From positions 62,001 to 126,000 of the forward strand of contig DAOUQF010000003.1 in NCBI GenBank assembly GCA_030625815.1: 64,000 bases of DNA. The letters run 5' to 3'. Source of the stretch: Eubacteriales bacterium (GTDB taxonomy: Bacteria; Bacillota; Clostridia; Tissierellales; GPF-1). Positions 18,540-44,285 of this stretch are shown here, in pieces (position 1 is the first letter of the stretch; each line of letters starts with the position of its first letter). The notes under the pieces were generated by a model that saw only the letters and a list, made by a program, of their open reading frames with translations, had not been told where the DNA came from and searched no databases. The translations under genes were made by a program, and so were the position numbers.

Positions 18540-19259
18540 TTAAATCCCGCAATACTCCTCCATCAACAGACGGTTTCTTTCATCAGCGCCATCTACATTC
18601 GAACTCCTAAAAACTGGCGGCTCCAATCCTTCTTTCACATAGTTCTGAACCACCTCCGTAATGAGAGACTGCATGATAAATGCGCCAAGAATCGTTGATG
18701 TCGCTCCAACTGGCGTTTCCAGCCCAGGGATTTTTGTCGCTGCATCACCAAAATCCCCAGCATTATCGATAACAAGATCCGCTACATCCATCAATCTTTT
18801 TCCACTCGGGTGTCGACTGGATACAGCTAAAGAATGGGCCAAATTCGTTAGCGCAATCACCTTGCAATTCCGCCCCTTGGCTCCTAACGCCATCTCGACA
18901 GGAAATGCATTCCTTCCCGAATTCGACACCACGATCAATACATCCTTACTCCCAACACCATACTGATCCAACAACACGTCCGCGTATCCAGACAATCTTT
19001 CAACCATGGTACTCTTCAATGGATGTTGATGCAACATCAGCTCCGGGTCTAAAATCGGATGAATCGCTGCAAACCCTCCCGCACGGACATAAATCTCTTC
19101 CGCCATCATATGCGAATGCCCCGAACCGGCAATAAAAAATTTTCCGTCATTGCTAAGCGTCTCAAAGATCATATCTGCGGCTGTTTGTATCTTGCCCGCT
19201 TCATTTTGAACCACCTTGTCAATTTTTTCTTTAATTGAATTTCCGTATTCTTGAATCAT
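18540..19259 (-). CDS. SIS-domain sugar-phosphate-binding protein (UPF0309-like)
   Basis: 239 residues from ATG 19259, seven bases after GGAGG. The SIS fold is visible: FFIAGSGHSHMMAEEIYVRAGG (about 40-61, phosphosugar-binding loop), VLIVVSNSGRNAFPVEMAL (second SIS motif, about 106-124) and VIALTN. It closely resembles the UPF0309 group often encoded beside N-acetylglucosamine or N-acetylmuramic acid genes. Its probable role is isomerisation or sensing of an amino-sugar phosphate. It is divergent from the LevR-type activator and lies at the edge of the PTS locus. It has its own terminator and no sigma-54 promoter, so its control differs from that of the PTS operon. Confidence 0.88.
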   Translation of the reverse strand: MIQEYGNSIKEKIDKVVQNEAGKIQTAADMIFETLSNDGKFFIAGSGHSHMMAEEIYVRAGGFAAIHPILDPELMLHQHPLKSTMVERLSGYADVLLDQYGVGSKDVLIVVSNSGRNAFPVEMALGAKGRNCKVIALTNLAHSLAVSSRHPSGKRLMDVADLVIDNAGDFGDAATKIPGLETPVGATSTILGAFIMQSLITEVVQNYVKEGLEPPVFRSSNVDGADERNRLLMEEYCGI

Positions 19260-19405
19260 TTCATTTCCTCCTTTAAGACTACAATTAGAAAGCAACTCCT
19301 TCTTCCAGCTCATTCATTTCAAGCCATTTACTCTTACTATCTCCTGTGATAGCATGGTATAGACAACATATCATTCCACCAAAATTGGTTGTTTTAGGAG
19401 CTGTT

Positions 19406-22126
19406 ATGAAACAGATTGATCAAGTTTATCAAGCCGTTTATCAGACATGTAAAGCCAAAGAAACGGATGGACTTTCCCTTGAGGTTACCACCAGCGAAAT
19501 GACAGAAATTTGCGGAATCCGCAGATCCAATCTGTCTCGCATCCTAAACACCCTCGTGCAAGCAGGTAGGTTGCAAAAAAACACGGGACGCCCCGTTCTC
19601 TATTCAATCGATACAAAACAAAATTCAATTCCCTTAAAATCAGAATCAACCGTTTTCAGTCATATCATTGGCGCAGACAAAAGCCTAAAAAATGCCATTC
19701 AGCAAGCCAAGTCCGCGATGATGTATCCACCCCATGGTCTTCATACCATGCTGGTTGGAGAAACAGGTGTTGGAAAATCGATGTTTGCCGAGCAAATGCA
19801 TCTATACGCCAAGCAAATTAACCGAATCAGCAAGAATGCACCCTTGATTTCCTTCAACTGCGCCGATTATGCCAACAACCCTCAGCTTTTGCTCCTAATC
19901 CTCTTTGGCGCGAAAAAGGGAAGCTATACTGGCGCCGATGAAGACCGGGACGGATTGGTTAAAAAAGCGGATGGAGGCATTCTCTTCCTCGATGAAATTC
20001 ATCGTCTGCCACCCGAAGGTCAGGAGATGCTTTTCTATCTTCTCGATAAAGGCACTTATCGCCGAATGGGCGAAAATAATACCATGCAAAAATCACAAAT
20101 CGTCTTTCTCTGTGCAACAACTGAGAATATTAATTCAGGGCTTCTTCAAACCTTTCTTCGAAGAATTCCCATGATCATCAATTTGCCGCCCTTGCGTGAA
20201 ATGACGATTGAAGAACGTTGGGAATTGGTGCAATGGTATTTTATGCAACAAGCGGAGTTTCTGAAAATTCCAGTTTCCATAACCGCCAATGTAATCCGTT
20301 CCTTTTTGTCTTACAATTGCGCCAACAATATCGGCCAACTCATCAGCGACATTAAATTATGTTGCGCCAGAACCTATCTTGAATACATATCAAAGAACGA
20401 AAAGGAAATGGTAATCCACTACTCCTATCTCCCCAAGCATGTGCAAAATGGGCTCCTGTTCTACAAGGAAAATCAATCCGCCTATGAATCTGCGGATCTT
20501 CCGAAAGAGCCGGTGGTGTTTGCTGTCGACAATTTCAGCCAACCCGCTTCACTCGATAACGCGCCTTTTAATTTATACGATGTCCTTGATCAAAAATCGG
20601 CAAGTTTGAAAAAAGAAGGGTTGAATGAAACGGATGCCCATCTTCTGATGAGCCTGGAATTAGATCACTATCTCGACAAATACATTCACCGCACGTTAAA
20701 CGCGCCGATTGAAGAATTGCAAAAGATCATCGATCAAGAACTCATCGCCCTAACGCAAGTCTTTGTCGACTATGCCTTCAAAAGTCTGAATCTGCCTTTG
20801 AATGACAAAAATGTCCTTGCTTTGGCGCTGCATATTTCTTGCACCCTTGAGCGACTAAAAAAAGGCATGCCCATCAACAATCCAAACTTGGATGAAATTA
20901 AAACTTCGCACCCTGTGGAATTCACCCTGGCTTCGAAGTTTGTCGCGACCCTCGAAAAGGAATATCACCTCGACATTCCTGAGGATGAGGTTGGCTTTAT
21001 CGCCATGTTCTTGCTCCATGACAAGAAATTACACGAAACCAAATCCGGTCACGTCGGTGTGATCGTCGCCATGCATGGGGAGAGCAGTGCAACCTCTATG
21101 GTAGATGTTTCCAATCGCTTGCTGGGCACCAACCATGCCCATGGCTACAATATGAGTCTGGATCAGAAGGTTGAAACCGCGCTAGAAAACCTAATTGAAC
21201 TTGTCAAGCACGTCAACGATCAAAAGGGCGTCATCCTCCTTGTTGATATGGGCTCCCTTCTATTCTTGGGTGATATGGTTAACAAACGAACCCAAATCCC
21301 TATAAAAACCATTGAAATGGCCAGCACCCCCATGGTACTGGAAGCCACAAGACGCGCCCTGATGGAAACTGATCTGGAGGCGGTTTATCAATCCGTCATC
21401 GATTTCAGCCCCTATATCGGCCGGATGTACGACAATCATAAGCTCTTGAATCAGACTCAAAAAAACAACGTCATCATCACGGCGTGCATCACAGGCGAAG
21501 GCACCGCCATCAAATTAAAAAGCATTATTGAAAACAGCCTGTTGCGGGGGCAAAACAAATGGAGCGAACTGCCTGATATCTTACCGATTGAAATCATGAA
21601 TCTGGATGACTATAACCAAAAACTGCATATGATTCAGAAACAGAAAAAGATTATCGCCGTCGTCAGCAATGTGAAACCGCAAAACAAAAACCTGCCCTAT
21701 ATTCCAATGGAAGAATTGCTTTTAGGGAACGGCCTAAGCCGGCTCAATCATCTGATCACCGCCCATGAAGACCCTGACTTTTTCCATCGCATGCGACAGG
21801 TCATTCAAGATCATGTTGAAATTCCTACCGATACTTATATGAACGCATTTCAAGAATTTCTATTCATCCTTCAAAATGAAAACATCTTCTTGGATCAATC
21901 GATTCTTTCCGGTTTGATCTTGCACATCGCCTGTGTAATTGAAAAGCATCTGTTGGGCACCTTAAGCAATCGGTTTGCAGTTGATCAAACGGTATTGGAC
22001 CAAAATCAAAACATATACCTGATTTTGAAAAAGGCTTTTGTTTCCTTTAGCCAGGCCTTCCAAATCGATTTTCCTGAAATCGAATACGTCAATGCCATCA
22101 AATTGATTCGAGCCACCAACTCATAG
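19406..22126 (+). CDS. LevR-type sigma-54-dependent PTS operon activator
   Basis: 906 residues from ATG 19406, after TAGGAG; the longer frame from 19346 lacks a site. Order of domains: winged HTH (about 1-75), AAA+ sigma-54 interaction domain with Walker A GETGVGKS (118-125), a GSYTGA loop replacing GAFTGA (172-177) and Walker B GGILFLDEIHRL, first PRD (about 430-520), an EIIA-mannose-like domain starting HVGVIVAMHGESSATSMV (about 547), an EIIB-like stretch and a C-terminal PRD (about 800-905). Phosphorylation of the PRD and EIIA histidines by HPr and the cognate EIIB normally couples activity to sugar supply. It faces the sigma-54-promoted PTS operon that ends just beyond it. I expect it to activate the promoter at 28838-28853. 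Confidence 0.95.
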   Translation: MKQIDQVYQAVYQTCKAKETDGLSLEVTTSEMTEICGIRRSNLSRILNTLVQAGRLQKNTGRPVLYSIDTKQNSIPLKSESTVFSHIIGADKSLKNAIQQAKSAMMYPPHGLHTMLVGETGVGKSMFAEQMHLYAKQINRISKNAPLISFNCADYANNPQLLLLILFGAKKGSYTGADEDRDGLVKKADGGILFLDEIHRLPPEGQEMLFYLLDKGTYRRMGENNTMQKSQIVFLCATTENINSGLLQTFLRRIPMIINLPPLREMTIEERWELVQWYFMQQAEFLKIPVSITANVIRSFLSYNCANNIGQLISDIKLCCARTYLEYISKNEKEMVIHYSYLPKHVQNGLLFYKENQSAYESADLPKEPVVFAVDNFSQPASLDNAPFNLYDVLDQKSASLKKEGLNETDAHLLMSLELDHYLDKYIHRTLNAPIEELQKIIDQELIALTQVFVDYAFKSLNLPLNDKNVLALALHISCTLERLKKGMPINNPNLDEIKTSHPVEFTLASKFVATLEKEYHLDIPEDEVGFIAMFLLHDKKLHETKSGHVGVIVAMHGESSATSMVDVSNRLLGTNHAHGYNMSLDQKVETALENLIELVKHVNDQKGVILLVDMGSLLFLGDMVNKRTQIPIKTIEMASTPMVLEATRRALMETDLEAVYQSVIDFSPYIGRMYDNHKLLNQTQKNNVIITACITGEGTAIKLKSIIENSLLRGQNKWSELPDILPIEIMNLDDYNQKLHMIQKQKKIIAVVSNVKPQNKNLPYIPMEELLLGNGLSRLNHLITAHEDPDFFHRMRQVIQDHVEIPTDTYMNAFQEFLFILQNENIFLDQSILSGLILHIACVIEKHLLGTLSNRFAVDQTVLDQNQNIYLILKKAFVSFSQAFQIDFPEIEYVNAIKLIRATNS

Positions 22127-22164: not shown

Positions 22165-23097
22165 TCAGCGCATCAATTCTAAGGCATATTGAACAGCTCC
22201 AAAAGAAGCTTCTTTCTGCAATTGTCGCACTTCGACCTTCGGATAAAGCGACCGAATTTCTTCTGAAAAAATCTGACTGATTCTTTTATTCTTTGTCACA
22301 ATGCTGCCATGGGGAACCAAAACAAATTCCTTGTCTTCCCATTCCATGCGACGAACCAAAGTTGTCGCCAACTTGCATAACGCTTCTGCCGCTTGCGAAA
22401 CAATCACCCTTGCATCAGAATCTCCCGCCTCATCCAGTTCGCAAACAATTTCTGCAATTTTTGCTATGCGTTGCTTCTCAAAAGGCGCCTGATACACAAA
22501 TTCCATAATCCCGTCGATCCCCCGGTTGCCCATTTCTTCGATCATCCGCTGAAACAATACCGAAGGCACTCCTGTTTCATCCCAAGATTCCAATGCTCGC
22601 TGAATGGCTTTTACGGCAATCCAATACCCACTGCCTTCATCACCCAGCAAATAATCCCAACCGCCTGCGCGATAGACTTCGCCCACTTCATTCTTCGCCA
22701 AAGCGATTGATCCTGTACCGGCGATCAACAGCATGCCGCAATCATCCTTCACCGCAGCCTTCAGTGCGATATCCGCATCGCTTGTCGCCAACACATCGCA
22801 TGAAAATCCTAGATTGGTTAAGCAAAATTCCATCTTCTGCTGATTCAAATCCGTATCAATCCCCGCAGCACCAATGCAAACGCCTCTACAGCCTTCCATC
22901 GAACAGCCACTCTCCAATAAGAATCGTTGAACGGCTCCATCCAAGTTGGAACTTACCTGTTCTTGCGAATCAGAATGCAAGTTCGTCGCACCAAAGTCCA
23001 CCTTCCCAATCACCTTTCCCTCCAGATTGGTGGCCAGCAACATGCTCTTGGTTCCGCCTCCCTCAATTCCGATCACATAAGAATCTTGTCTCTCCAT
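22165..23097 (-). CDS. BadF/BadG-family kinase, N-acetylglucosamine kinase-like
   Basis: 310 residues of the ASKHA fold: phosphate-1 motif YVIGIEGGGTKS (residues 6-17), phosphate-2 region LLIAGTGSIALA, and GGWDYLLGDEGSGYWIA, the signature of eukaryotic-type and bacterial GlcNAc kinases. ATG 23097 follows GGAGGG and starts 13 bases after the GH4 gene, so the longer frame from 23157 is wrong. It probably phosphorylates the unphosphorylated sugar released when the GH4 enzyme splits an imported disaccharide phosphate. This is the last gene of the PTS operon. The sugar (GlcNAc versus another hexosamine) is inferred from family only. Confidence 0.88.
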   Translation of the reverse strand: MERQDSYVIGIEGGGTKSMLLATNLEGKVIGKVDFGATNLHSDSQEQVSSNLDGAVQRFLLESGCSMEGCRGVCIGAAGIDTDLNQQKMEFCLTNLGFSCDVLATSDADIALKAAVKDDCGMLLIAGTGSIALAKNEVGEVYRAGGWDYLLGDEGSGYWIAVKAIQRALESWDETGVPSVLFQRMIEEMGNRGIDGIMEFVYQAPFEKQRIAKIAEIVCELDEAGDSDARVIVSQAAEALCKLATTLVRRMEWEDKEFVLVPHGSIVTKNKRISQIFSEEIRSLYPKVEVRQLQKEASFGAVQYALELMR

Positions 23098-23110
23098 TTC
23101 CAAGCCCTCC

Positions 23111-24421
23111 TTATTGAAATTGTGGAAGGTATTCTTTGTTCTCAAGAAGAATATCATCTAGAATTTTCTTCGCGATACCCGCACTGGTCACCAAAGGATT
23201 CATTGTTAAAGCCTGCAGCGCGACGCCATAATCTCCCGTCACAGCTGCTTCTATCGTTAATTCTTCATACGCCTTCACAACCTGCATCAACCCTCGGATT
23301 TTGGTTTCCACACGGCCTGTATTCAGCGGTAGCACCCCATGCTTGGTAATCAACGCGCTGGTTTCTACCACAACATTTTCCGGCAAATCCGCAATGGCGC
23401 CATTGTTCCGTACATTCACCGGCATGACAATTCGCTTATCGTTGTAAATGGCATGAATCAGGGTACAGGCGGCATCGGAATAGTATTGCCCGCCACGCTC
23501 TTCCAATTGCTTGGGTTTTACATCAAGGTCTTGGTTCGCATAGATCGCAAACAATTCCTCTTCCACTTTCTTGACAACCTCGCCTCGGGTGCCCACCGTC
23601 TTCGCGGCCTCTATCTCCTCTTTCAACATTTCATCCGTCAAATAAAAATATCGGTGATACGGACACGGCAGCATATTCAAATCCTTGATCTGTTCGGCGA
23701 CCCACTCGTTTTCCGGAATATTCTTGACACCGGACTGGATATCATGAACAAGCAAATCGACAACTTTTTCCGTTACATCCTCGCCCTTGCAATACACCTT
23801 TCTTCCCCAAACCAAATGGTTCAAGCCAACAAAGTGAACAAAAATATCCGTTTCCTCGGCCTCCATCATTTCCGCAACCATCTTCTGCATCAGGATCGGC
23901 ACATTGCAAAGCCCAACGCATTTGATTTTTGTGTGTTTCAACACTGCTTCAGTGATAATCCCCGATGGATTGGTAAAATTGACAAGCCATGCGTCTGGAC
24001 ACAATTCCTCCATGTCCCGGCAAATATCCAAGATCACCGGAATCGTTCGCAAAGCCTTGGCAAATCCGCCTGCTCCCGTCGTTTCCTGACCCATGCAGCC
24101 ATAGCGAAGCGGAATCTTCTCATCCCGAATCCGTGCGTCCAAGAGTCCAACACGAAATTGTGTCGTCACAAAATCCGCATCCTTCAACGCGCTTCTTCGA
24201 TCCAGTGTCAGATTTATCGTACAATCAACGCCCGCTTTTTTCACCATGCGCTTCGCAAGATTCCCAACAATTTCTAATTTATCTTTACCTGCTTCAATGT
24301 CCACCAGCCACAATTCCTTGACCGGCAACTCTGCATAACGGTTGATAAATCCCTCAATAATTTCAGGCGTATAGCTAGATCCCCCTCCAATGATGGCAAT
24401 CTTCAATCCTTTTTCTATCAT
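23111..24421 (-). CDS. GH4 family 6-phospho-glycosidase
   Basis: 436 residues of glycoside hydrolase family 4, which cleaves phosphorylated disaccharides by an NAD- and Mn-dependent redox mechanism. Visible are the dinucleotide loop IAIIGGGSSYTPEIIEGF (about 6-23), a middle WLVNFTNPSG, CVGLCNVPI with the metal-ligand cysteine near 170, HFVGLNHL near 200 and QYYSDAA near 290. The pattern is closer to LicH/CelF 6-phospho-beta-glucosidases than to alpha-specific MalH. ATG 24421 lies eight bases after GGAG; GTG 24430 is in the same frame. It acts on the product of the EIICBA genes upstream in the same operon. Confidence 0.93.
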   Translation of the reverse strand: MIEKGLKIAIIGGGSSYTPEIIEGFINRYAELPVKELWLVDIEAGKDKLEIVGNLAKRMVKKAGVDCTINLTLDRRSALKDADFVTTQFRVGLLDARIRDEKIPLRYGCMGQETTGAGGFAKALRTIPVILDICRDMEELCPDAWLVNFTNPSGIITEAVLKHTKIKCVGLCNVPILMQKMVAEMMEAEETDIFVHFVGLNHLVWGRKVYCKGEDVTEKVVDLLVHDIQSGVKNIPENEWVAEQIKDLNMLPCPYHRYFYLTDEMLKEEIEAAKTVGTRGEVVKKVEEELFAIYANQDLDVKPKQLEERGGQYYSDAACTLIHAIYNDKRIVMPVNVRNNGAIADLPENVVVETSALITKHGVLPLNTGRVETKIRGLMQVVKAYEELTIEAAVTGDYGVALQALTMNPLVTSAGIAKKILDDILLENKEYLPQFQ

Positions 24422-24436
24422 TTCACACACTCCAAT

Positions 24437-25810
24437 CTACCAACCGTATCGGTTGGATCCCCATGACTTCATTTCCTTTTCCTGCTTCACGACAACCAAT
24501 GTCTCCGAAGCGATATCTTGATCAATAATCGCCCCTGGCCACAGGGCAACATTGCACCCAATTTTCACGCCGGGCAAAAAGATGTTTCCCACGCCCGTCC
24601 GGCTATGGTCGCCAATAAAAATCGCATCGGAATACTGCGCCGGATATTCCATCCGACCTTGAATGCGCTGAGGCGTAACCCCGTCATCAAATCGCAGCGA
24701 TCCCGTCAAGCAGCCCGCTGCAATATCGGTATAACTCCCAATCACACCGCGCATTTCACAATTATGCGCCAAGCTGACATGATCAAAGGTCACCCCTGCC
24801 ACTTCCGCATTAAACCCAATCTTATTGTACACACCTATGGTGGTATGCGATCGGATACAGCAAATATCCTCGATCCGACAACCGTCTCCGATGACAACCT
24901 TGTCTTCTAGGATCGCCCCGCTGTCAATCACCACATTCTCGCCGATATAGGCATCGCCCTTGATCATGACATTCCTTCCAATCCGGCTTCCTTTCCCCAG
25001 ATGAATCTTTCCGCCAATCCACGCAGAATCATCGATGAAGGTTGATGAATCGATTTCATTCGTTTCCATCTTTTCAAACAGCGATTCAATCATCAACTCA
25101 TTCGCCTCCAGAAGATGCCAAGGCTTGTCAAGATCCAAACAGAATCCAGTTGCCTCAACCGCCGATACGGAAATCCCGTCCTCGATCATCATCTGCATGC
25201 TCTGCGCCAATTCCGCTTCCTTATTCGGCATGCCGCCTACGCAGACATTCATCATATAACCGGGATTTGAAAGCAGATAGGACATCGCTGATTGCGGCAA
25301 GGCAAAAACACCACCCAAGCGCGAATTCACATAATGGCTTCTTGGATGGCCATAGATCCCGCGCACTTGTTGTTTCTCGCAATCCGCGCAAATCCAATCG
25401 ATGGATCGCTCTGTCGGATCCAACTTTTGCGTCAGGATAACCGCTTCGCCCGTTTTTTCAAAACAATCTATCACTTCTCGCATACTTTGATCATCCACAA
25501 CAACATCGCCGTAAACAATCAAAACATCATCATTCTCATTTTCAAGTCCAGCTAATGCGCTCTTCGCGGTGCCGGCTGCTCGCGCTTCTTCAACAATCCG
25601 CACAGAACCGTATTTCCGCAAGGCATAACGCACCATTTCAGCATGATGCGATATCACTACCACAATCTCTGAAATCCCAGCCTGCTCCAGTTGCTCTACC
25701 AATCGTTCCACTACGGGTTTATTGAGTACGGGCAAACAAGCTTTAGGTCGCCATTCTCCGAAAGGCCACAGCTTCTTTCCCTTACCCGCACATAAAATGA
25801 TTCCCTTCAT
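24437..25810 (-). CDS. GlmU-like bidomain sugar-phosphate nucleotidyltransferase
   Basis: 457 residues. N-terminal nucleotidyltransferase: IILCAGKGKKLWPFGEWRPK (the G-x-G-x-R/K-x-x-P loop, residues 3-22) then ACLPVLNKP, and VYGDVVVDD at about 100. The C-terminal half (about 255-440) is a left-handed beta helix made of hexapeptides such as IGGKIHLGKGSRIGRN and VFLPG-like turns, as in GlmU, GalF-like and related enzymes. It would make a nucleotide sugar from a sugar 1-phosphate and may acetylate. ATG 25810 gives the canonical start; the earlier frame from 25960 overlaps the upstream gene and is spurious. A nucleotidyltransferase inside a sugar-uptake PTS operon is unusual. Confidence 0.88.
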   Translation of the reverse strand: MKGIILCAGKGKKLWPFGEWRPKACLPVLNKPVVERLVEQLEQAGISEIVVVISHHAEMVRYALRKYGSVRIVEEARAAGTAKSALAGLENENDDVLIVYGDVVVDDQSMREVIDCFEKTGEAVILTQKLDPTERSIDWICADCEKQQVRGIYGHPRSHYVNSRLGGVFALPQSAMSYLLSNPGYMMNVCVGGMPNKEAELAQSMQMMIEDGISVSAVEATGFCLDLDKPWHLLEANELMIESLFEKMETNEIDSSTFIDDSAWIGGKIHLGKGSRIGRNVMIKGDAYIGENVVIDSGAILEDKVVIGDGCRIEDICCIRSHTTIGVYNKIGFNAEVAGVTFDHVSLAHNCEMRGVIGSYTDIAAGCLTGSLRFDDGVTPQRIQGRMEYPAQYSDAIFIGDHSRTGVGNIFLPGVKIGCNVALWPGAIIDQDIASETLVVVKQEKEMKSWGSNRYGW

Positions 25811-25826
25811 TTCGACCATCCTCTTC

Positions 25827-26774
25827 CTATTTGCGTATGGAATATCCCATTCTTCGGTAGGTGTGTCTCTTTCCTCGAACCGCGACAGACAACGCCATAA
25901 TATTCTCAGGGTCCGCCATGCCCGAATGACCTGCATCGCCAATATGCACAATATCGGCACCCGCCATCTTCGACATCATTCCAATATCTTCAAGAACTCG
26001 AATGCTTGAGCCCTCTTGCGAGGTACCCATCGCTGTTTTCGCCAAGGCTCCCGCACAATGAATCGCCTCAATCTGCTTTCTTGCAAGCTCTTGATCCATT
26101 CCCGGTACAGTTCCCGGCGCGGGAATCATCACCACATCGGCACCAGCTTCAGCAAAATCAACCAATACCTGCGGATCATAGATGTTCTCTCCTCCGGCAC
26201 CATGCATTTTGCCGGCGATAATCATCACGTGATCACCCAGAATTTCAACCGCTTCCTTGATTCCTTCCAAAATGGTTTCCACCGTCACTCCAGTATTTGG
26301 ATTACCGGTGATTACAATATAATCAAAACCCAACTCCAATACACGCTTGAGATTTTCTCGATTCAAACGCAACCCCATGGGATAATCCGACCCCTCTGGC
26401 ACCGGCTCCATATTCACGCCGACAAATCTTCCCAATACGCTTTTCAGCTTACGGATATAATCTAGATTCTTGCTTTTCTCCAATACAAATTCGGAAAATT
26501 GAGCATATCCGTCCGCCGGGTTATCTCCTTCATTATCAAATTCATCCAATCCATGGACAAATGGAACCTGGAAATTAAAGGTATTCAAGGTAATCATGTC
26601 AGCGCCAAAGGCTGCTGCTGTCTCGGGATTGCTCGTTCCATAAATCAAGCTTTGACAACTGATCACAGTCTCCGCCATAATGGTTCTGCCTTCAGATCCC
26701 CTGATGCATTGAACCAGCTTCGCTTTATCACAGGTCATCACATCTTCATGATTCAGTTCAAATATTCTTTTCAA
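25827..26774 (-). CDS. PTS-associated TIM-barrel-like protein of unknown function
   Basis: 315 residues, TTG start 26774 with AAGGA eight bases upstream. The sequence has the alternating strand/helix pattern of a TIM barrel: AFGADMITLNTF, FDYIVITGNPNTG, MIIAGKMHGAGGEN, ADVVMIPAPGTVPGM, and ADIVHIGDAGHSGM at the C-terminus, a phosphate-binding-like ending. I associate it with a family (DUF7916, recalled and not checked) found in lactose/cellobiose-type PTS operons and sometimes labelled PEP phosphonomutase-like. It lies 18 bases after the EIIA gene and 16 before the nucleotidyltransferase. An isomerase or lyase step on the imported sugar is a guess. Confidence 0.75.
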   Translation of the reverse strand: MKRIFELNHEDVMTCDKAKLVQCIRGSEGRTIMAETVISCQSLIYGTSNPETAAAFGADMITLNTFNFQVPFVHGLDEFDNEGDNPADGYAQFSEFVLEKSKNLDYIRKLKSVLGRFVGVNMEPVPEGSDYPMGLRLNRENLKRVLELGFDYIVITGNPNTGVTVETILEGIKEAVEILGDHVMIIAGKMHGAGGENIYDPQVLVDFAEAGADVVMIPAPGTVPGMDQELARKQIEAIHCAGALAKTAMGTSQEGSSIRVLEDIGMMSKMAGADIVHIGDAGHSGMADPENIMALSVAVRGKRHTYRRMGYSIRK

Positions 26775-26792
26775 CGTAATTGTCCTTTCTTC

Positions 26793-27098
26793 CTAGACTC
26801 TACACTCAATCATGCCCACCATTTCAGCAATTAAATCCTTCGCCAAGGTTGCATTCATCAAATGATCCTGAGCATGAACCATCAGCAAGTTGACTTCTAT
26901 TTTTTCACCGCTTGCTTCCGCCTGAAGCATTTTTGTTTGCACATGATGCGCTTCCAACAGTTCTTGATCCGCTTTTTTTATCAATTCACCTGCTTTATCC
27001 AGATTTGATTTCTTGGCTTCACTTAGCGCCTCAAAACTATATCCTTTTGCATTTCCCGAATGAATAATAATTGACATTATCGTTTCTTCAAATCCCAT
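26793..27098 (-). CDS. PTS EIIA component, lactose/cellobiose family
   Basis: 101 residues, all-helical, typical EIIA-Lac/Cel. The phosphorylated histidine is in LMVHAQDHLM (His75), with the metal-ligand Asp three residues later. The start is ATG 27098, eight bases after GGAGG; the frame continues upstream but without another good site. It accepts phosphate from HPr and passes it to EIIB, encoded 22 bases upstream. Confidence 0.95.
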   Translation of the reverse strand: MGFEETIMSIIIHSGNAKGYSFEALSEAKKSNLDKAGELIKKADQELLEAHHVQTKMLQAEASGEKIEVNLLMVHAQDHLMNATLAKDLIAEMVGMIECRV

Positions 27099-27120
27099 GT
27101 TCATCACCTCCACCTATTTA

Positions 27121-27420
27121 TTAAAGCCCAAGGGCTAAATCCAATGCCTTCTCTCCGTCTACCATTCCATAAATCATCGGTGCGATCAGCGCAAATTTCT
27201 TGTCGTACTCCATGCACGTCTTTGAAATTTCTTTTTCCTTATAAGCCAATTGCGGTCCCAAAAGAAATACATCATAGGTCTCAATCAATTCACGCAACTC
27301 CAATGCGGATCGCGCTTCGATTTCGATATTCTCAATCCCGCGTTCTGCCGCGACGACTTTCATTTTCTTCACCAATAGACTGGTTGACATTCCCGCATTG
27401 CAAAGCAATAAAATTTTCAT
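27121..27420 (-). CDS. PTS EIIB component, lactose/cellobiose family
   Basis: 99 residues. The active cysteine is Cys7 in ILLLCNAGMSTSLLVKKM, the hallmark P-loop-like phosphocysteine loop of EIIB-Lac/Cel. ATG 27420 is six bases after GGAGG, and a tandem ATG at 27423 is possible. It receives phosphate from EIIA and phosphorylates the sugar bound by EIIC. It may also modify the LevR-type activator's PRD, as in related systems. Confidence 0.95.
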   Translation of the reverse strand: MKILLLCNAGMSTSLLVKKMKVVAAERGIENIEIEARSALELRELIETYDVFLLGPQLAYKEKEISKTCMEYDKKFALIAPMIYGMVDGEKALDLALGL

Positions 27421-27487
27421 CATTTCCCTCCAAAATTTTAATTTCCATCAGCAGACAAGTGATCCCTGCCTGCCGATAGAAATTGAA

Positions 27488-28753
27488 TTAGCTAATTGCT
27501 TTTTCCTCTGATTCTGCTGTCACGCTCTTAGGAAGCAAACTTTGTTTTTCAGCACTTTTGAAGAACGGATAGTATACGGTTGCCGCAATTACAATTGAAA
27601 TCGCACTCCATACCGCTGCTTTCCAGTCTCCGCCTGTTGCCAAATATGGTCCAATAATGGCAGGCATTGTCCAAGGAACCGCCGCCACTGGACGGCCGAT
27701 AATATTTAAAGCCATTAAAATATACGTCGTTGCTGTCAATACAAATGGTGTCGCAATATACGGAATCATCATAGTTGGATTCAATACAATCGGGAATCCA
27801 AAGACAACTGGTTCATTGATTTGAAAAATTGCCGATGGCAATGACAAACGTCCCAATTGTTTGTACATTTTGTTCTTTGAACGAATCATCAACAAAACCA
27901 AAGCAAGGGTTGCGCCAGTTCCGCCGATATTAACAAACATCGGAATGAATCCATCCGCTGCAATATATGGAATTGGATCTCCTGCTGCAAATGCAACCGC
28001 ATTGGCCGCCAAAAATTGAAGCATAATCGGGCTACCCATCGCGTTCATAATTGCGTCCCCATGAATACCTACCGTCCACAACAAAGTAATCATCAACATG
28101 TATACCAATAGTCCTGGCAATGTATTCAAAGCAAAAACAGCCGGTTGGAAGATCATTGTAATAAAATCATTCACATTAAACTCAAGAACAATTCGAACGA
28201 CCCACAAGGAAACGATCATAAAAACAATTGGCATCAACGAAATAAATGAATTCGCAATTGCCGGTGGAACGTTTTCCGGAAGTTTAATAACAAATCCTTT
28301 TTCCACAAAGAATTTCTGCACCTCAACAGCAAAAATTGCTACGATCAGCGCTGTAAACAATCCCTCAGGACCAAAGTTCCCCACAAGCAAACCTGCTCCC
28401 GGTTCTGTTTGAAGCAATAGAAAACCGACCAATGCCATAACACCGCCTGTAATTTCATGCTGCTTGAATTGAACCGAGAGGTTGTAGCCAACCGCAAACG
28501 ATGCAATCAAGCCCAGGCAACCAAAGGTAACATCCACCGGCGCCAGCATTTTATCCATATATGGTTCCATAATGGCTTCCCATCCTGGAATCGGCAAGAA
28601 CGAAATAATCAAGAAAATACTACCGGCAATCGTGAAAGGAATTGTTGCAATCAAGCCATCACGGATCCCCATTAAATGCTTGTTCTCTCCCAACAGAGCA
28701 AGTTTTGGAAGAACTTTATCAATTAACCATGCCATAAAGCCTTTCTTTTCCAT
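27488..28753 (-). CDS. PTS EIIC permease, lactose/cellobiose family
   Basis: 421 residues with about ten hydrophobic segments. Conserved features are the HGDAIMNAMGSP substrate loop near residue 225, the INEPVVFGFPIVLNP motif near 310 and DGLIATIPFTIAGS at the N-terminus. This is the translocation subunit for beta-linked disaccharides such as cellobiose or chitobiose. It is the first gene of the operon and begins 85 bases downstream of the sigma-54 promoter; ATG 28753 follows GGAG eight bases upstream. The 64 bases to the EIIB gene contain no clear terminator. Confidence 0.95.
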   Translation of the reverse strand: MEKKGFMAWLIDKVLPKLALLGENKHLMGIRDGLIATIPFTIAGSIFLIISFLPIPGWEAIMEPYMDKMLAPVDVTFGCLGLIASFAVGYNLSVQFKQHEITGGVMALVGFLLLQTEPGAGLLVGNFGPEGLFTALIVAIFAVEVQKFFVEKGFVIKLPENVPPAIANSFISLMPIVFMIVSLWVVRIVLEFNVNDFITMIFQPAVFALNTLPGLLVYMLMITLLWTVGIHGDAIMNAMGSPIMLQFLAANAVAFAAGDPIPYIAADGFIPMFVNIGGTGATLALVLLMIRSKNKMYKQLGRLSLPSAIFQINEPVVFGFPIVLNPTMMIPYIATPFVLTATTYILMALNIIGRPVAAVPWTMPAIIGPYLATGGDWKAAVWSAISIVIAATVYYPFFKSAEKQSLLPKSVTAESEEKAIS

Positions 28754-28837
28754 GTTTTCATCTCCTTATCTAACACCCATTATTCCATTTTACGCTACTC
28801 ATGATCATAACACTACTGTCTAGACACTACTATTTAT

Positions 28838-28853
28838 TGCAAGTACCGTGCCA
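28838..28853 (-). promoter_or_regulatory. Sigma-54 promoter of the PTS operon
   Basis: Minus-strand TGGCACGGTACTTGCA, a near-consensus -24/-12 element (GG and GC ten bases apart), followed by the AT-rich start region. It needs an enhancer-binding activator; the LevR-type protein encoded at the other end of the operon is the obvious one. Confidence 0.92.
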
Positions 28854-44269: not shown

Positions 44270-44285
44270 TGCAAGTATCATGCCA
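44270..44285 (-). promoter_or_regulatory. Sigma-54 promoter of the C26-opp operon
   Basis: Minus-strand TGGCATGATACTTGCA, with GG and GC ten bases apart, 38 bases upstream of the first start codon. It matches the PTS promoter at 28838-28853 closely. Confidence 0.88.

Follow-up and report, generated by a model that had tools for sequence, protein, structure and literature searches.

We describe a phosphotransferase system (PTS) operon in a 64,000-nt stretch of contig DAOUQF010000003.1 from a Eubacteriales bacterium (the window; coordinates count from its first letter), in which genes predicted to import and break down an amino-sugar disaccharide stand beside the gene for a two-domain nucleotidyltransferase (NTase). 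The operon comprises seven genes, all on the minus strand between positions 28753 and 22165, recognized from the open reading frame (ORF) list and family profiles. Together with their promoter site and two neighboring genes, they are laid out as follows:

28838..28853, minus strand: sigma-54 (-24/-12) promoter site TGGCACGGTACTTGCA, an exact consensus match
27488..28753, minus strand: PTS EIIC, lactose/cellobiose family (PF02378, 170 bits; TIGR00410, 350 bits against a cut-off of 236)
27121..27423, minus strand: PTS EIIB, lactose/cellobiose family (PF02302, 62 bits)
26793..27113, minus strand: PTS EIIA, lactose/cellobiose family (PF02255, 121 bits)
25827..26774, minus strand: DUF7916 (beta/alpha)8-barrel protein, TTG start (PF25509, 367.9 bits against a gathering threshold of 27)
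24437..25810, minus strand: two-domain NTase of an unnamed family, 457 amino acids, with an N-terminal nucleotidyltransferase (NTP transferase) domain and a C-terminal left-handed beta-helix of hexapeptide repeats
23111..24430, minus strand: GH4 6-phospho-beta-glycosidase, GTG start (PF02056 and PF11975)
22165..23097, minus strand: BadF-family amino-sugar kinase, NagK/MurK-like (PF01869, BcrAD_BadFG)
19346..22126, plus strand: LevR-type activator with a sigma-54 AAA+ domain, two PRDs and an EIIA-man domain
18540..19262, minus strand: NagS-like SIS protein (PRK02947, 309 bits against a cut-off of 135)

In operon order, from EIIC to the kinase gene, the intergenic gaps measure 64, 7, 18, 16, 6 and 13 bases, figures that assume that the NTase starts at the ATG at 25810, rather than at the longest-ORF start of 25960, and that the kinase starts at 23097, the probable start of an ORF that can be read from 23157. 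Such short gaps make it likely, as judged from the sequence, that the seven genes form a single transcript, and no terminator-like site was found on the minus strand inside any of them. The promoter site TGGCACGGTACTTGCA is the only exact match to the sigma-54 consensus in the window, and none of 100 shuffles gave one. The activator gene is convergent with the operon, and the SIS gene, divergent from that of the activator, is probably transcribed separately. A preliminary description of this DNA had proposed an operon under sigma-54 control that encodes EIIC-EIIB-EIIA, a TIM-barrel protein, a GH4 phospho-glycosidase and a GlcNAc-type kinase, and this outline holds up well: all seven genes are present and tightly spaced, the exact promoter match and the adjacent LevR-type activator argue for sigma-54 control, and the TIM-barrel protein is modeled as a (beta/alpha)8 barrel of family DUF7916. 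The GH4 protein is nearest to solved 6-phospho-beta-glucosidases (top PDB matches 1s6y and 5c3m, 586 bits) and the kinase to a MurNAc/GlcNAc kinase (top PDB match 8zo3, 172 bits). A correction concerns the transporter, whose components are all present as three distinct genes.

The NTase had been called GlmU-like. It has an intact catalytic core, but in the sense of GlmU the label is not supported: the protein scores below the cut-offs of the GlmU profile (TIGR01173; 91.8 bits, cut-off 366.85), the Arch_glmU profile (TIGR03992; 206 bits, cut-off 292.1) and the MurU profile (49.4 bits, cut-off 250), and its sugar-side motifs differ. All 23 aligned members of its family match Arch_glmU, with the window's NTase falling below the cut-off. 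We reject a role as the housekeeping GlmU, since the same genome encodes a separate, regular GlmU that scores 544.6 bits, above the cut-off, and on these profile comparisons the GlmU label should be dropped. A second frame resembling the N-terminal part of GlmU lies elsewhere in the genome (G000:C20:92817-93560; 215 bits) and contains an in-frame TGA.

Scanning genome contigs with the single NTase protein as query returned no relatives, whereas a scan with the NTase alignment found 261 stretches coding for them. The best 80 of these 261 were kept; they are mostly full length, show 39-56% identity and come from Poribacteria, Armatimonadota, Chloroflexota, Planctomycetota and Bacillota. By sequence, the NTase is a member of an unnamed family found in Bacillota, Poribacteria, Armatimonadota and Chloroflexota. 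Across 84 sequences of full or almost full length, the core residues G9, G11, K23, D102, D226 and D228 are conserved wherever the position is covered (83-84 of 84), and K229 likewise occurs in all sequences covering it. Positions on the nucleotide side and the metal side show no variation, and the signature of sugar-1-phosphate nucleotidyltransferases, G-x-G...K with metal-binding aspartates, is present. On the sugar side, H155 and R157 are found in 84 of 84 sequences within a G-H-P-R motif, where related enzymes have E-K-P, and the N-x-G motif is altered relative to those enzymes; a C-terminal YGW is nearly invariant. The structural model (predicted local distance difference test, pLDDT, 83.1) places ST0452 entries at Foldseek ranks 1-5, the top match having a template modeling (TM) score of 0.68 on the query and 25% identity. 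Of the second-domain residues that we take to be those of the ST0452 acetyltransferase, the histidine is kept in the alignment of the NTase to ST0452 and the others are not.

We analyzed 19 distinct Bacillota-type NTase loci (the window, L017-L023, L056, L077, L079, L084, L091, L093, L097-L100 and L103, with L098 coming from an unclassified metagenome-assembled genome). A NagS-like SIS gene is present in 14 of the 19 and lies at most two genes from the NTase in 10 of these, although just 49 of 299 genomes in the phylum encode any member of that SIS family; a rough estimate puts the chance of such linkage at about 0.003 per locus. Because some loci are close kin, the NTase tree provides a fairer test: the SIS label requires 5 changes on it, against a mean of 11.8 for shuffled labels, with no value that small in 500 shuffles. 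BadF-family kinases lie near the NTase in 9 loci, and in L058 and L064 the GH4, kinase and NTase genes follow one another directly, their ends overlapping or abutting. Other neighbors include NanE (L023, L056), NagB (L056, named from sequence), a MupG-like gene (L020), GH84 (L018), YdjC with a GntR/UTRA regulator (L084), and further ABC sugar transporters and GntR/UTRA or DeoR regulators; no glycosyltransferase was recognized among the neighbors in the Bacillota loci. The linkage of the NTase to amino-sugar genes is well supported. The preliminary description had held that the NTase does not belong to catabolism, which is too strong for a recurrent neighbor of amino-sugar catabolic genes across Bacillota, and above all of NagS-like SIS genes, and it had missed the SIS gene at 19262-18540 as a partner.

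Two further Bacillota genomes carry the gene set of the window, which removes the objection, raised with the preliminary description, that its order might not be conserved. Locus L017 (genome G018, from the same order) contains, in sequence, genes for an activator (54% identical to that of the window), a secreted protein, EIIC, EIIB, EIIA, DUF7916, an NTase 56-57% identical to that of the window, GH4, SIS and kinase. Locus L022, from a Thermoanaerobacterales genome, contains EIIC, EIIB, EIIA, GH4, DUF7916, SIS and NTase genes, with a sigma-54-like site, TGGCATGGATATTGCT, preceding EIIC. Identities span 37-78%. Such a complete set is uncommon: a close NTase was found in only one other genome among 100 relatives.

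The SIS protein of the window has a NagS-type pocket, in which eight of the nine substrate-binding or catalytic residues of NagS are identical (His53, Ser54, Arg64, Glu94, Ser119, Ser121, Asp179 and Asn228) and Ser91 is replaced by Thr. It resembles in this the GlcNAc-6P dehydratase NagS of Streptomyces (SCO4393; PMC12680351), but is a distant homologue only and is found with an NTase. We found nothing in the literature that deals directly with an NTase-SIS operon. Three more NagS-like SIS genes form a tandem row elsewhere in the same genome (G000:C43:25505-28653).

DUF7916 is modeled with a pLDDT of 83.7 and has many equally good, generic TIM-barrel matches. In 17 of 19 other genomes with readable surroundings its gene is part of a PTS operon or adjoins one (names from sequence inspection), the PTS neighbors, of GlcNAc type, being mostly NagE-like EIIBC, EIIA and an antiterminator, in some cases with nagA, murQ or GH4. 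Two candidate roles were rejected. DUF7916 is no substitute for NagA, since each of the 28 genomes examined (27 from the DUF7916 search, plus G018, where locus L017 has the gene) encodes NagA above its cut-off. A weak profile match to NanE (E 0.03) raised the possibility of a NanE stand-in, yet NanE occurs in 7 of 27 genomes with DUF7916, and in 24 of 272 without it, so the two are not mutually exclusive. Nothing direct on DUF7916 was found in the literature. It is probably an enzyme that works on an amino-sugar phosphate, most likely a 6-phosphate.

Taken together, the operon is real, conserved and functionally coherent, and the idea of the preliminary description that some imported sugar is diverted to make a nucleotide sugar stays a plausible best guess. 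We tentatively favor a reading, which we hold to be a little short of probable, in which the operon serves amino-sugar disaccharide catabolism with the NTase as a side branch to a nucleotide sugar. Under sigma-54/LevR control, EIIC, EIIB and EIIA would import an amino-sugar disaccharide, chitobiose-like or MurNAc-GlcNAc-like, as its 6'-phosphate; cleavage by GH4 would then yield a sugar 6-phosphate together with a free amino sugar, and the latter would be phosphorylated by the NagK/MurK-like kinase. We infer these three steps from the protein families. The bulk of the product would reach glycolysis through NagA, whose genes are present in the genome away from the operon, and presumably NagB. 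In the side branch the NTase, usually partnered by the NagS-like SIS protein, would take a sugar 1-phosphate made from the imported sugar and join it to a nucleoside triphosphate, as its intact catalytic core suggests. The resulting nucleotide sugar would be destined for the cell envelope, as in AmgK-MurU salvage but through unrelated proteins. We can only guess at the product of the NTase and at the reactions of the SIS and DUF7916 proteins, and also at the source of the 1-phosphate, which might be the kinase acting on C1 or a mutase encoded elsewhere.

Several observations weigh against this reading. The known related kinases phosphorylate C6 rather than C1, and the operon contains no phosphomutase or anomeric kinase; the SIS gene of the window sits outside the operon. 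None of 49 Poribacteria NTase loci has a SIS or kinase gene nearby, so the general role of the family need not be amino-sugar salvage. The replacement of E-K-P and N-x-G implies that the NTase substrate may not be GlcNAc-1-P. Moreover, the GH4 enzyme of E. coli works on a deacetylated substrate (PMC12791066), and the operon encodes no deacetylase of the ChbG type, a single YdjC gene being found elsewhere in the genome. A more specific version, which we consider somewhat unlikely, posits an undescribed salvage route in Bacillota, in which the SIS protein and the new NTase family would make a non-standard nucleotide sugar from part of the imported disaccharide without recourse to GlmM and GlmU, with a separate role for the NTase in Poribacteria and Armatimonadota.

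The altered sugar-side motifs suggest a different sugar pocket, and the NTase and the SIS protein might handle a by-product or unusual amino-sugar phosphate and yield something other than ordinary UDP-GlcNAc, the SIS protein making or removing a dehydrated or isomerized sugar phosphate as Streptomyces NagS does and the NTase using that sugar. The eight NagS residues retained by the SIS protein and the NTase-SIS pairs of L077 and L084, nearly alone beside a GntR-type regulator, fit this account, but distant NagS homologues from Clostridium and Paenibacillus showed GlcNAc-6P dehydratase activity that was negligible or absent (PMC12680351) and the NTases of L058 and L064 have a kinase and GH4 but no SIS gene nearby; we regard it as unlikely. 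A role of the NTase in making an NDP-hexose that feeds a storage or exported polysaccharide, with the operon merely supplying precursor and the amino-sugar context secondary, draws on loci outside Bacillota with a UDP-glucuronate decarboxylase-like short-chain dehydrogenase/reductase (L071) or a phosphoglucose/phosphomannose isomerase (L092), and on a phosphohexomutase-like neighbor in L096 (named from sequence). The predominance of amino-sugar genes among Bacillota neighbors and the absence of a recognizable glycosyltransferase there make this quite unlikely. The changed pocket, with most of the presumed ST0452 acetyltransferase residues missing from the second domain, could also belong to a former enzyme that senses a sugar phosphate or nucleotide sugar and tunes the operon, but a catalytic core invariant across phyla over full-length sequences, and an operon already served by a dedicated PTS-sensing activator, leave this very improbable. 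An ordinary spare GlmU, raising UDP-GlcNAc supply when amino sugars are plentiful, would agree with the domain order and fold class shared with GlmU and ST0452; given scores far below the GlmU and Arch_glmU cut-offs, H155 and R157 standing where relatives have E-K-P in all 84 sequences, and second-domain positions that mostly differ from those of ST0452, we find it the most improbable of the explanations considered.

Comparison with known systems sharpens what is distinctive about the favored reading of catabolism with a nucleotide-sugar branch. The PF01869 kinase belongs to a different family from AmgK, and the NTase differs from MurU in its second, beta-helix domain and in scoring below the MurU cut-off. 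The likeness to AmgK-MurU in Pseudomonas MurNAc salvage lies in the proximity of a sugar kinase gene and a GlmU-like NTase gene in an amino-sugar salvage setting, and murU and amgK were themselves discovered from a GlmU-like NTase adjoining a kinase (PMC5371407). With chitobiose PTS operons the window shares Lac/cellobiose-family EIIC, EIIB and EIIA and an intracellular 6-phosphoglycosidase, the combination expected of a chb-type operon, the glycosidase being a GH4 enzyme as in E. coli chb; the chb operon of Lacticaseibacillus paracasei uses the GH170 enzyme ChbE (PMC12791066). It differs in lacking a deacetylase, in adding the kinase, DUF7916 and the NTase, in its sigma-54/LevR control, and in that its substrate is a predicted one. 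ST0452, an archaeal bifunctional sugar-1-phosphate nucleotidylyltransferase/acetyltransferase, has the same two-domain fold and similar nucleotide-side motifs, whereas the NTase falls below the Arch_glmU cut-off, has G-H-P-R in place of E-K-P and departs from it at second-domain positions. The activator has the domains of LevR/DagR activators (AAA+ sigma-54 domain, two PRDs and EIIA-man domain), but reaches 491 bits against a DagR cut-off of 1400.

Some further features were observed at these loci. Large secreted-looking proteins (L017:4092-6437, L020:2425-7641, L021:12955-19901, L093:10587-18491 and L097:10555-18468) adjoin NTase/SIS/kinase loci in three lineages; they are mutually related, with 25-43% identity between lineages and no Pfam domain over the shared part, and may be an extracellular enzyme that frees the imported sugar. 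Neutral/alkaline ceramidase-like genes (PF04734; L023:1-1122 and L056:4956-6272) adjoin NanE, SIS and NTase genes. In the window itself, a second sigma-54-like site, TGGCATGATACTTGCA (44270-44285, minus strand, one mismatch to the consensus), separates the gene of a sigma-54 activator (46410-44401) from a glutamine-amidotransferase-like gene, behind which are a peptide ABC transporter and amidohydrolases (stretch 43435-34998). This stretch is possibly another sigma-54 operon. A lone one-mismatch site is within chance.

These results give a large, conserved and uncharacterized NTase family a concrete context, consisting of a SIS protein, an amino-sugar kinase and a phosphoglycosidase, and they do the same for DUF7916 and for distant NagS homologues. 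The company that the NTase keeps with amino-sugar breakdown genes in many other Firmicutes suggests a so far undescribed branch in the recycling of cell-wall or chitin sugars, which, if it exists, would constitute a second anabolic route of amino-sugar recycling, in Gram-positive lineages and parallel to AmgK-MurU.

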